The position numbers were made by a program, and so were the translations under genes. A stretch of 64,000 bases of DNA from Bacteroidales bacterium (GTDB lineage: Bacteria; Bacteroidota; Bacteroidia; Bacteroidales; DTU049): positions 1-64,000 of the forward strand of contig JAOAAK010000029.1 of assembly GCA_026418905.1 (NCBI GenBank). Reading direction: 5' to 3'. The notes under the pieces were generated by a model. It worked only from the letters and a program-made list of their open reading frames with translations, was not told the origin of the DNA and did not search any database. Of the stretch, positions 5,228 to 10,016 are shown piece by piece (the stretch's first letter is position 1; the number at the start of each line of letters is the position of its first letter).

Positions 5228-6139
5228 TTACATCCAGTTCTTCCGTTTGAACACAAAGAGCATAAAAGCCGCCACAAATAGCATAAAACCTACTACATAA
5301 TAAAATGCCCATGTATCTTCTTGAAAAGGCAAGAGGATATTCATTCCATACACACCGGTAATGAATGTTAACGGCAGCATGATGGTACTGATCATCGTGA
5401 GGATTTTTACAATTTCATTCGTTCTGTTTACGAGCATAGAATCAATCGTCTTAGCAAGCCCTTCAATAAGCTCCTGATCATCTTCGATCATATCCATAAT
5501 CCTTTGATAATAGTCGGCAATGTTTCCCCAGTATTCTTCCATGTCGGGCTCGAAGCCTTTCACTTTACCTAATTCAAAAAGCTGAATAACACGCAACTGA
5601 GGTTTAAAAGTCGTATTTAATAGAATAATATTCCTTCGGGTATAAGATATTTTCTCGATGATTTTTACAGCATTTTTTGAAAACATGTAACGATTGATGT
5701 TATCGATCTCGCTTTCAACTCTTGTCAGAACTTGCAAAGTTTCTTTGAGAAGAGACTCAATGATCACATACAAAGTCTTATCGGACGAAATAAGATAATC
5801 AACCTCTTCTCCTTGTTCTACTTTTAGTTGCGTTTCTTCAAACAAATCACGAATAATCCAATGTGTATTGCCAACGGTTATGATGTAATTTTTTCCCCAA
5901 AAAATTTTGATTTCCTTAATTTTTATGAAACGGTTGATTTTATCAAAATAAGGAAAATGTAAAATGAGAAAATAATAGTCATCATAAATATCTATTTTTG
6001 ATCGTTGCTGCCGAGTACGACAATCTTCAATATCTAAAGGGTGAAATTCAAAATTACCTGAAAGAAAATCATAATCCTCATCCGTAGGATGAGCAATATT
6101 AAACCAAACAAGATTTCCATAGTGTAATTTCTGAATCAT
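5228..6139 (-). CDS. corA: CorA family Mg2+/divalent cation transporter
   Basis: A 303-residue protein with the CorA plan: a long cytoplasmic N-terminal part with an alpha-beta core and long helices (residues 1-235), followed by two membrane helices at the C-terminus. The selectivity signature YGMNI lies at the end of the first helix, and the short tail FKRKNWM is basic as in the family. CorA forms a homopentameric channel for Mg2+ (also Co2+, Ni2+). The ATG at 6139 is supported by a promoter element at 6169-6176. It heads a likely two-gene unit with the DMT transporter. Confidence 0.93.
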   Translation of the reverse strand: MIQKLHYGNLVWFNIAHPTDEDYDFLSGNFEFHPLDIEDCRTRQQRSKIDIYDDYYFLILHFPYFDKINRFIKIKEIKIFWGKNYIITVGNTHWIIRDLFEETQLKVEQGEEVDYLISSDKTLYVIIESLLKETLQVLTRVESEIDNINRYMFSKNAVKIIEKISYTRRNIILLNTTFKPQLRVIQLFELGKVKGFEPDMEEYWGNIADYYQRIMDMIEDDQELIEGLAKTIDSMLVNRTNEIVKILTMISTIMLPLTFITGVYGMNILLPFQEDTWAFYYVVGFMLFVAAFMLFVFKRKNWM

Positions 6140-6168
6140 GCATCGAAATTAAATCGTGAGCTTTTGAC

Positions 6169-6176
6169 AAAATTAG
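6169..6176 (-). promoter_or_regulatory. Promoter -7 element (TAATTTTG) of corA
   Basis: On the minus strand TAATTTTG matches TAnnTTTG and lies 29 bases before the corA ATG. It sits between the corA start and the terminator of the actin-like gene, where a promoter is expected. Confidence 0.45.
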
Positions 6177-6191
6177 TCAAATAAAATAAAA

Positions 6192-6213
6192 AAACCCTCA
6201 TTTCTGAGGGTTT
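6192..6213 (-). terminator. Terminator of the actin-like gene
   Basis: A perfect 9-bp stem (AAACCCTCA / TGAGGGTTT) around a four-base loop. Read on the minus strand it is followed by a run of T. It separates the actin-like gene from corA, making the former a single-gene transcript. Confidence 0.8.
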
Positions 6214-6230
6214 AATAAAAAATTAAATTT

Positions 6231-7271
6231 TTATGCAAACTGTTTAAACACATCTTCTTGTAAAATAGTCACTACCGTATTGGCATTACCGATATCTAAT
6301 CCCACCTGCATAACATTAGCATTTTCAGCCTGACGCTTGCTGTAAATAGCAAAGCCCTTGGAGGCTGTTAAAGTGGGTTCAGGTAATACTTTAATAGGCA
6401 TAATTTTACCAAATTCTTGCTGAAACATTGCAATGAGGTCACTATAATAAGCTCCCCCACCCACAATGAACATAGCATTAGCACGAGCAAAATCTGCATC
6501 AGTAAAAGCCTTAGCAAGTGAAGGAGAAATAACCTGCAAGTAATATTGCTGCAGATGTTTTCTCCTGAGATCAACTAGTGAAATATTCTCTCTGTTAATG
6601 ACAATTCTTCCTTCTCTGAAACCGAAATCAAACTGATGTTCCGTCTTAAGCCCAACATAATGATTCTTCATTAGCTCTCTGGCTGCATTTATCACAGCAT
6701 ATCTTATCCCAGCGGTCGAAACAACTGTTCTCTGGACAATACCACTTTCGATACTCAGGGCAGCTTCAAAAGTTCCGTATCCCAAACTTAATAAGAAATA
6801 TGAATCTACCTTTTCACTCGAAGCTGCCCTTATAAAAATATCAGAACCCATTAATTCAGGTAAAACAAATACTTTTGCTACTGGAATTTCCTTTTCCTGA
6901 ATCCCTTTGTTTGAAAAAACATTAGCATCGTATCTAACCAGATGATTTGTTTGCAGCAATTCAATTGCCTTGTTTCTATAAATTTGATAAGTTACAGAAG
7001 GAAAACCAGTAGTCAAGTAAATAGCTGTATTAGATTCTTCAGAAGCAAGCAAAAGAGCGCTCTTTGCCAACAATTTATAATCCCTATCATCAGGTGAGCT
7101 GTTGATCATTTTCTGAGGAGACAAGCCTTCGGATAAAGCCAAATTACCAATCAAATATCCTTGGTTAAACTCGTCGAAAATTCGCAAGCCGTTGATTAAA
7201 TCGGGAGCAATCTGATTTAACTCGAGTTGATTTACTTCAACAATGCTGGGTATTACGTATGTTTTAAACAT
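6231..7271 (-). CDS. ParM-like actin family ATPase, circularly permuted
   Basis: A 346-residue actin-fold protein related to plasmid-type ParM/Alp proteins. Residues 38-50 (YLIGNLALSEG), 85-93 (YLTTGFPSV), the phosphate-2 region 161-169 (LSLGYGTFE), the adenosine motif 268-273 (FIVGGG) and ASKGFAIY (303-310) follow the usual family order. The phosphate-1 motif, which should open the protein, is instead at the very end: VGLDIGNANTVV at residues 323-334. The start MFKTYVIPSIV and the end QEDVFKQFA overlap in sense at 'FK', so rejoining them recreates a normal ParM N-terminus. The start is fixed by a promoter at 7286-7293, leaving no room for a missing N-terminal piece. The phosphate-2 Asp is replaced by Ser162. 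No ParR-like partner is adjacent and the gene is monocistronic. Function (filament, DNA segregation or other) is unknown. Confidence 0.82.
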   Translation of the reverse strand: MFKTYVIPSIVEVNQLELNQIAPDLINGLRIFDEFNQGYLIGNLALSEGLSPQKMINSSPDDRDYKLLAKSALLLASEESNTAIYLTTGFPSVTYQIYRNKAIELLQTNHLVRYDANVFSNKGIQEKEIPVAKVFVLPELMGSDIFIRAASSEKVDSYFLLSLGYGTFEAALSIESGIVQRTVVSTAGIRYAVINAARELMKNHYVGLKTEHQFDFGFREGRIVINRENISLVDLRRKHLQQYYLQVISPSLAKAFTDADFARANAMFIVGGGAYYSDLIAMFQQEFGKIMPIKVLPEPTLTASKGFAIYSKRQAENANVMQVGLDIGNANTVVTILQEDVFKQFA

Positions 7272-7285
7272 ATGGCAATTTTTGT

Positions 7286-7293
7286 CAAAAATA
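7286..7293 (-). promoter_or_regulatory. Promoter -7 element (TATTTTTG) of the actin-like gene
   Basis: Minus-strand TATTTTTG ends 14 bases before the ATG at 7271. It matters because it shows that the actin-like gene truly begins at that ATG. Confidence 0.5.
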
Positions 7294-7362
7294 TAATATT
7301 TCTTTCAAACAAAAAAACTTTTATAATATTACTAGTATAACATTACAGGTTATAGGTTTTTC

Positions 7363-7370
7363 TAAATTTG
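7363..7370 (+). promoter_or_regulatory. Promoter -7 element (TAAATTTG) of the GldA-like gene
   Basis: TAAATTTG matches TAnnTTTG and ends 11 bases before the ATG at 7382. It is back to back with the promoter of the divergent actin-like gene. Confidence 0.5.
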
Positions 7371-7381
7371 AAAAAAATTTT

Positions 7382-8293
7382 ATGTCTATTGAAATCAAAC
7401 ATATTACTAAAGTTTATGGTCAACAAAAAGCCCTAGATGATATTACTTTGAGTATAAGTAGTGGAGAAATTGTAGGATTACTTGGACCCAACGGTGCTGG
7501 TAAATCTACTTTAATGAAAATATTGACAGGCTATATTTCCCCTACATCAGGACAAGCCATTGTAGCAGGTTTCGATATTTCAAAACAACCTTTGGCCGTA
7601 AAACGTTCGATTGGCTATCTTCCCGAAAATAATCCACTCTATTACGATATGCACGTACCTGAATTTTTAATGTTTGTAGCTGGTATTTACAAAATATCAA
7701 ACAAATCCCAAAGAGTGCGAGAAATCATCGAAATCACTGGATTAGAACCCGAAGCTCATAAGAAAATAGGAGCTTTATCCAAAGGGTTCAAACAAAGAGT
7801 TGGCCTCGCCCAGGCCATTATTCATGACCCTCCTATTCTAATTCTTGATGAACCAACAAGCGGTCTTGATCCCAATCAAATTATCGAGATACGTGAACTC
7901 ATCAAACAACTAGGTAAAAGGAAAACCATTCTCCTCTCTACTCACATAATGCAAGAAGTCGAAGCTATCTGTAATAGAGTCGTCATTATTCACAAGGGAA
8001 AACTTATAGCCGATGGTTCTCCCCAGGATTTACGATCGATTCAGCAACAACAAAATCTTATTGTTGTTGAATTTGACAAAAACGTTCCCGTCAATGACTT
8101 ACTGCAACTGAAATTTGTGGATTACGTTCATAAAAAAGACAATCAGCTATACGAAATTAGCACATCACGTCCTGACGAATGTAGCAAATTACTTTTTAAT
8201 TATGCTGTAGAAAAGAAACTCACCATCATCTCACTTCAACACAGAAAAACAAGCCTCGAAGAAATCTTTCACGAGCTCACTAAATCACAATAA
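7382..8293 (+). CDS. gldA: ABC transporter ATP-binding protein, GldA-like
   Basis: A 303-residue ABC ATPase with Walker A GPNGAGKST (about residue 36), Q-loop region LPENNPLYYDM, signature LSKGFKQRVGLAQA, Walker B LILDEPTSGLD and the H-loop STHIMQEVEA. The length and the NNPLY stretch resemble GldA, the ATPase of the GldAFG transporter needed for gliding in Flavobacterium; non-gliding Bacteroidota keep close relatives. The permease partners GldF and GldG are not next to it, so they must be encoded elsewhere. A single gene with its own promoter; it converges on the DUF1015 gene with a 10-base gap and no terminator. A generic ABC-2 export ATPase is the alternative. Confidence 0.75.
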   Translation: MSIEIKHITKVYGQQKALDDITLSISSGEIVGLLGPNGAGKSTLMKILTGYISPTSGQAIVAGFDISKQPLAVKRSIGYLPENNPLYYDMHVPEFLMFVAGIYKISNKSQRVREIIEITGLEPEAHKKIGALSKGFKQRVGLAQAIIHDPPILILDEPTSGLDPNQIIEIRELIKQLGKRKTILLSTHIMQEVEAICNRVVIIHKGKLIADGSPQDLRSIQQQQNLIVVEFDKNVPVNDLLQLKFVDYVHKKDNQLYEISTSRPDECSKLLFNYAVEKKLTIISLQHRKTSLEEIFHELTKSQ

Positions 8294-9563: not shown

Positions 9564-10016
9564 TTAAGTATTATGTTCTGATAAATTGGGAAGATCTTCT
9601 TCTTCGTCAGCATCGGTTTGGGGTTCATAGTTGCGGCGTGGCCCACGCTGTAACGAAGTAATTAAAGCCCCTACCATTTTAGATAGTTCAATAAGATACT
9701 GCTTACTTTCATCAAATTTTTCTTGAGAAATGTAGCCTTCGTTCAGCAAAGATGTAGAATAAACCACACATTCGCGTATGGAACTTTTAGCCATTTTTAA
9801 GTAATAAATAAACTGACTTTTGTTTCGACCACTTCCCTCTGCAATATTGACAGATATGTTCAGAGCAGATTTTGAAAATGCAAGCTTTGTCTGGTCTAGT
9901 ACGTCATCTCCTGGAATGCTCTTCAACATACCGTTGACGAAACGGCTAAAATCCAACGCTTTGTGATAAACTCTCAAATCTTCAAAGCGGAAAAAGTTAA
10001 AACTTCTGTTTTCCAT
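9564..10016 (-). CDS. Four-helix bundle protein of the S23 family
   Basis: A 150-residue, mostly helical protein. FRFEDLRVYHKALDF at residues 10-24 and the stretch NIAEGSGRNKSQFIYYLKMA near residues 57-78 are the two signatures of the S23/avd-like four-helix bundle family. Homologues were first noted within intervening sequences of 23S rRNA genes, and others act as accessory proteins of diversity-generating retroelements. Neither context is present: the gene sits between serA and the DUF1015 gene with gaps of 12-13 bases, clearly cotranscribed. The acidic C-terminal tail (DADEEEDLPNLSEHNT) is not part of the family core. Its role here is unknown. Confidence 0.85.
   Translation of the reverse strand: MENRSFNFFRFEDLRVYHKALDFSRFVNGMLKSIPGDDVLDQTKLAFSKSALNISVNIAEGSGRNKSQFIYYLKMAKSSIRECVVYSTSLLNEGYISQEKFDESKQYLIELSKMVGALITSLQRGPRRNYEPQTDADEEEDLPNLSEHNT

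Follow-up and report, generated by a model that had tools for sequence, protein, structure and literature searches.

A circularly permuted actin-like protein family in Bacteroidota with recurrent bactofilin gene neighbours

Gene organization at the locus

The window analysed in this study, a stretch of 64,000 nucleotides from a Bacteroidales genome, carries on its reverse strand the gene of an actin-like protein of 346 amino acids, whose parts are collected in Table 1. On re-reading the sequence, it was observed that the open reading frame, the coordinates and the peptides quoted in an earlier sequence-only reading were all correct. The phosphate-1 motif GLDIGNANT occupies residues 324-332, within the longer segment VGLDIGNANTVV (residues 323-334), and the protein ends in QEDVFKQFA. 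That reading had also argued that the promoter box leaves no space for a lost N-terminus, and we reached the same view: an in-frame stop lies just 11 codons upstream of the ATG, the TATTTTTG box stands 14 bp before it, and the DxGxxxT motif is absent from all three frames upstream, so that a lost N-terminus is ruled out. The gene appears to form a transcription unit of its own, since it is followed downstream by a gene for a CorA-type transporter and is flanked by a divergent gene for an ABC transporter ATPase. Elsewhere in the window, a gene for a 23S rRNA-intervening-sequence-type protein (PF05635) was noticed at 9564-10016(-), between the genes for a DUF1015 protein and a D-2-hydroxyacid dehydrogenase.

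Table 1. Features of the permuted actin gene and its flanks, in window coordinates
Feature	Position	Strand	Basis
Circularly permuted actin-like protein, 346 aa	6231..7271	(-)	Open reading frame, family alignment, AlphaFold2 model (pLDDT 87, pTM 0.88)
N-terminal strand FKTYVIPSIV, residues 2-11; in ordinary actins it comes after the phosphate-1 hairpin	7239..7268	(-)	ALP_N matches, modelled strand E2-8
E139, connect-1 glutamate	6855..6857	(-)	Invariant, 53/53
Phosphate-2 loop FLLSLGYGTFE, residues 159-169; Ser162 at the usual Asp site	6765..6797	(-)	S in 50/53, G in 2, N in 1; E169 in 53/53
Adenosine motif FIVGGG, residues 268-273	6453..6470	(-)	G271 and G272 in 53/53; aligned with the adenosine region of MreB and CoA-activase
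Linker SKRQAENANVMQ, residues 311-322, between the last helix and the displaced hairpin; length variable across the family	6306..6341	(-)	Alignment
Displaced phosphate-1 hairpin, strands 321-327 and 331-337	6261..6311	(-)	DSSP on the model, invariant D326/G328/N329, profile rotation
TATTTTTG, candidate Bacteroidota-type -7 box, ending 14 bp upstream of the ATG	7286..7293	(-)	Consensus match only
Terminator-like hairpin 3' of the gene	6192..6213	(-)	Consensus match only

Distribution and conservation of the family

Homologues of the window protein were detected in 21 of the 393 genomes of its order and in 24 of the 395 genomes taken across the phylum. A scan with the family alignment over one genome per GTDB species disclosed 152 loci, against no matches when genome contigs were searched with a single sequence. 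The best 80 of these 152 loci were used, and among them are isolates of Roseivirga, Cyclobacterium, Mucilaginibacter, Sphingobacterium, Odoribacter and Dysgonomonas, as well as one Balneolaceae assembly. The phosphate-1 motif was found at the C-terminus in 129 of 129 loci, a count that includes some genes fetched twice from two collections, and at the N-terminus in none. The sequence-only reading had proposed conservation of the C-terminal motif across Bacteroidota as a check, and homologues with an ordinary N-terminal motif as the sign of an assembly rearrangement; the former was observed and the latter were not encountered, and since every homologue carries the motif at its C-terminus, an assembly error is excluded. 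Among 53 representatives sharing less than 85% identity, on which all conservation counts are based, G324, D326, G328, N329, E139, E169, G271 and G272 are invariant.

A broken permuted-actin copy, interrupted by a frameshift and by one stop in frame, was noticed in genome G041 (C131:41395-42452; L005 and L006). An in-frame TAG in two copies of genome G379 was only a seeming interruption, being the terminal stop of each.

Circular permutation of the chain

The order of the chain was examined with the Pfam profile ALP_N (148 positions), which members of the family match with E-values reaching 2.3e-14, over the curated cut-off, the window protein itself lying under it. In their native order, four members match from profile position 17-18 only, starting at their own residue 3-4; with the C-terminal hairpin rotated to the front, the matches of all four begin at position 1, and the scores rise from 54.3 to 63.4, 48.5 to 57.8, 29.4 to 37.6 and 32.7 to 37.2 bits (gains of 9.1, 9.3, 8.2 and 4.5 bits, respectively). 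Rotation thus restores the first 16 or so profile positions, in line with the earlier proposal that joining the end of the protein to its start gives back a normal order. Throughout 21 genomes, the ALP_N hits start at profile position 11-21 in 16 of 16 cases, all at permuted genes, and no ordinary ALP was found with this profile alongside them. Aligned piece by piece, the protein likewise shows a swapped order against a CoA-activase and DnaK, the C-terminus of the family pairing with their N-terminus and body with body. The rotated profile brought no noticeable gain in E-value in a sequence search of the PDB, because those matches sit in the body of the protein, whereas ALP_N covers the hairpin.

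Many members stop a few residues past strand 2, as in ...TTVVANFSGE, indicating that the strand 2-3 turn is where the chain was cut; in the actin fold this turn faces outward on subdomain 1. It is near certain that the chain is circularly permuted at this turn, with the hairpin placed after the last helix and the new termini at the old turn. The hairpin probably takes its usual structural place, as is strongly suggested by the ALP_N result and the confidence of the predicted model, in which it appears as two confident strands. The other outcome that the sequence-only reading had named as refuting, a predicted structure with the C-terminal segment outside the strand 1-2 position, was thus not encountered.

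Predicted fold and active site

The AlphaFold2 model of the window protein has an actin fold, at the confidence given in Table 1, and the model of a relative reached a core pLDDT of about 96. The best Foldseek matches in the PDB for the two models were pCBH ParM (E 1.7e-14) and Ta0583 (E 2.4e-14), and the nearest solved folds comprise pCBH ParM, Ta0583, Dh-cParM1 and CorM. ALP_N (PF17989), Ta0583 and pCBH ParM share with the family a common sequence family and a common fold (Foldseek E about 1e-14). In comparison with ALP_N proteins, however, the permuted family has the first 16 or so profile positions at the C-terminus and a serine for the phosphate-2 aspartate. The phosphate-1, phosphate-2, connect and adenosine motifs of the actin superfamily are all found on this fold; the canonical chain order, with an N-terminal phosphate-1, is not found in the family.

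CorM of Anabaena, which with CorR makes up a ParM-type filament system (PDB 9rmi), is among the top structural matches of the permuted actin. The partner of CorM is CorR, whereas the recurrent neighbour of the permuted actin is a bactofilin. We take CorM/CorR to be a ParMR system that has been turned to a role at the cell cortex, with CorM presumably of ordinary chain order. MreB, another member of the actin superfamily, gives a weak profile match to the permuted actin in the adenosine region, but is not permuted. The window genome harbors its own full-length ordinary MreB (C20:38498-39472), for which reason a replacement of MreB by the permuted actin was rejected and the permuted protein is regarded as an additional actin.

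With regard to the active site, the phosphate-1 residue D326, the connect-1 residue E139 and the phosphate-2-loop residue E169 show no variation in the 53 representatives, and the phosphate-2 aspartate is not found in any of them (50 serines, two glycines and one asparagine). The permuted actin is likely to bind nucleotide, and likely retains an intact, ATP-binding pocket in its actin fold. Judged from sequence, the loss of the phosphate-2 aspartate may mean weak or no hydrolysis, and the invariance of E139, the site of what we take to be the catalytic glutamate of ParM and ALP proteins, suggests that hydrolysis is kept. A search of the open-licence literature by residue name found no ParM active-site mutants.

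Bactofilin neighbours

Bactofilins (PF04519) are recurrent gene neighbours of the permuted actins: a bactofilin gene adjoins the actin gene, on the same strand and within about 1.3 kb, in 29 of the 53 representatives, and the two genes often overlap or are only a few bases apart. Counted by gene position at the loci with long flanks, 19 of the 66 slots at +/-1 and 2 of the 66 at +/-2 hold a bactofilin; of the 335 slots from +/-3 to +/-8, none does. On the tree of the family, at least six changes between the linked and the unlinked state are seen, and no uniform neighbour other than bactofilin was found across the loci. The linked bactofilin is mostly an extra copy: where the actin or the link is lacking, most genomes hold no more than one bactofilin. 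In G450, G623 and G742, which form one family, the genome holds no bactofilin besides the linked one; this copy is placed about 1.2 kb away from the actin and lacks an aromatic end. Genome G379, whose sequences match Dysgonomonas mossii, harbors three actin genes on C2, C5 and C7 (L110, L121), each with bactofilins on both sides, and seven bactofilins in all.

The remaining 24 representatives, a few of which have short flanks, are without a bactofilin neighbour, and the conserved neighbourhood seen in the family is likewise not present at the window locus, which is one of these 24. The only bactofilin of the window genome (L134:1456-1827, 123 aa) is an ordinary one that lies on another contig and has no Trp end, and consequently a dedicated partner is either missing or unrecognised; a gene for a small AtpI-like membrane protein comes next after it. 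Genome G154 has a permuted actin and no detectable bactofilin.

Aromatic C-terminal tails

Bactofilin tails are generally short and poorly conserved, and one described client binds such a tail (PMC12448750). The linked bactofilins differ from this in that they mostly end in Trp or Phe: 21 of the 26 complete sequences finish with W, with W and one further residue, or with F, leaving five without an aromatic end. Their ends (NYGSVAW, FPRTW, QRWW, NSWY, NKLW, KIEW and SLLF) follow linkers that are otherwise dissimilar. None of the 18 bactofilins of actin-free genomes ends in W or F, and the ordinary bactofilins of actin-bearing genomes show one F end (L203) and no W end.

The actins themselves also carry aromatic tails, in 16 of the 24 unlinked representatives as against 9 of the 29 bactofilin-linked ones; these rows are related, and the counts are suggestive of such tails being commoner where a linked bactofilin is lacking. 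Two actins without a linked bactofilin (L122:10001-11293 and L128:10001-11296) have extensions of about 95 residues that end in KFLKTGMW and KFLISGTW, tails that are reminiscent of short amphipathic membrane anchors. In the model, the L122 extension is disordered and its W-tail forms a short helix of low confidence (pLDDT about 61-63), so that folding the tail together with its actin gave no demonstration of docking. In L015 and L104, a charged, His-rich actin extension of about 115 residues ends in EPDFS, of the same type as the short tails PAFS and PTFS.

Discussion

In this study, the window protein was shown to belong to a conserved chromosomal actin-like family of the ALP/ParM branch in Bacteroidota. 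We hold with good confidence that it is a permuted chromosomal ALP that is probably part of a membrane- or bactofilin-associated cytoskeleton, a function we infer. The displaced hairpin would fold back to its usual place, so that the protein would retain both its two-domain actin fold and the ability to bind nucleotide, in an active site that is probably altered by the exchange of the phosphate-2 aspartate for serine with retention of the connect-1 glutamate. The new C-terminus would emerge on the outside of subdomain IA and could bear a flexible tail. In many lineages a dedicated bactofilin whose C-terminal peptide has Trp or Phe would be the partner; in others, including the window genome, no such bactofilin is seen, and some of the actins bear an aromatic tail of their own. 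With a little less than even confidence, we propose that the permuted actin forms nucleotide-dependent filaments or oligomers which, at the membrane, cooperate with a scaffold of bactofilin in shaping the cell or organising its envelope, besides MreB.

The main rival is a permuted, nucleotide-binding protein that forms no filaments and serves other cytoskeletal proteins as a cap or as an adaptor switched by nucleotide, in the manner of PilM or FtsA-like members, which we consider a real though lesser possibility. The prevailing serine at the phosphate-2 site agrees with such a role, as do the weak matches of the PilM and FtsA profiles to the family, and the neighbouring bactofilin could itself be the polymer. 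On the other hand, the invariant E139 suggests that hydrolysis is kept, and the nearest folds are mostly filament formers.

It is very unlikely that the hairpin is given to a neighbouring subunit in a strand or domain swap, with polymerisation completing the nucleotide pocket; the linker to the hairpin, of about 10 to more than 30 residues across the family, is probably flexible, which would fit this, but the monomer models already show the hairpin as confident strands. A chromosomal ParMRC system for DNA segregation is scarcely credible either, even though the closest PDB sequence relative is the chromosomal Dh-cParM1 (E 3.9e-5): no tandem or parC-like repeats were found beside the gene (6100-7450 of the window), no conserved ParR-type neighbour was found in 81 loci, and the plasmid, phage, viral-contig and PHROGs searches were empty, on which ground a mobile-element origin was dropped as well. 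Dh-cParM1 and Cb-cParM resemble the permuted family in being chromosomal without an obvious plasmid tie, yet they have ParR neighbours (PMC12270681), which the permuted family lacks. The description of the protein as ParM-like consequently holds for fold and sequence, and fails for ParR, parC and plasmid association. An artefact of assembly or of gene prediction, or damage to the gene of the kind that the broken copy in G041 might bring to mind, has a practically negligible chance in view of the intact, collinear homologues with a C-terminal motif in many genera, from isolates and metagenomes alike.

Turning back to the proposed actin-bactofilin cytoskeleton, we know of no natural actin permutant and of no earlier genetic link between actin and bactofilin. 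A search of the open-licence literature, with subscription papers and preprints outside its scope, found neither a permuted actin, in agreement with the sequence-only reading, which knew of none described, nor an actin-bactofilin operon. The 2025 work on chromosomal ParMs (PMC12270681) makes no mention of permutation, Bacteroidota, bactofilin or an actin-bactofilin operon. We tentatively suggest that this family may be the first natural permuted actin and may, together with a dedicated bactofilin, make up an undescribed two-filament cytoskeletal module in Bacteroidota. The permutation would have left a free C-terminus on subdomain IA, and the aromatic C-terminal peptide, whether of the bactofilin or of the actin, would hook the two polymers to each other or to the membrane.

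Few machines in biology are as conserved as the actin-fold proteins, and a conserved permutant shows that their nucleotide pocket can withstand a break in the chain at the strand 2-3 turn. The permuted family thus offers a natural experiment on which chain connections are needed for folding and polymerisation. It also exposes an annotation gap, as Pfam ALP_N recognises many members but carries no indication that their front lacks the first positions. The recurrent pairing would, to our knowledge, tie an actin to a bactofilin genetically for the first time, and the short conserved peptide allows a direct test of binding between the two.
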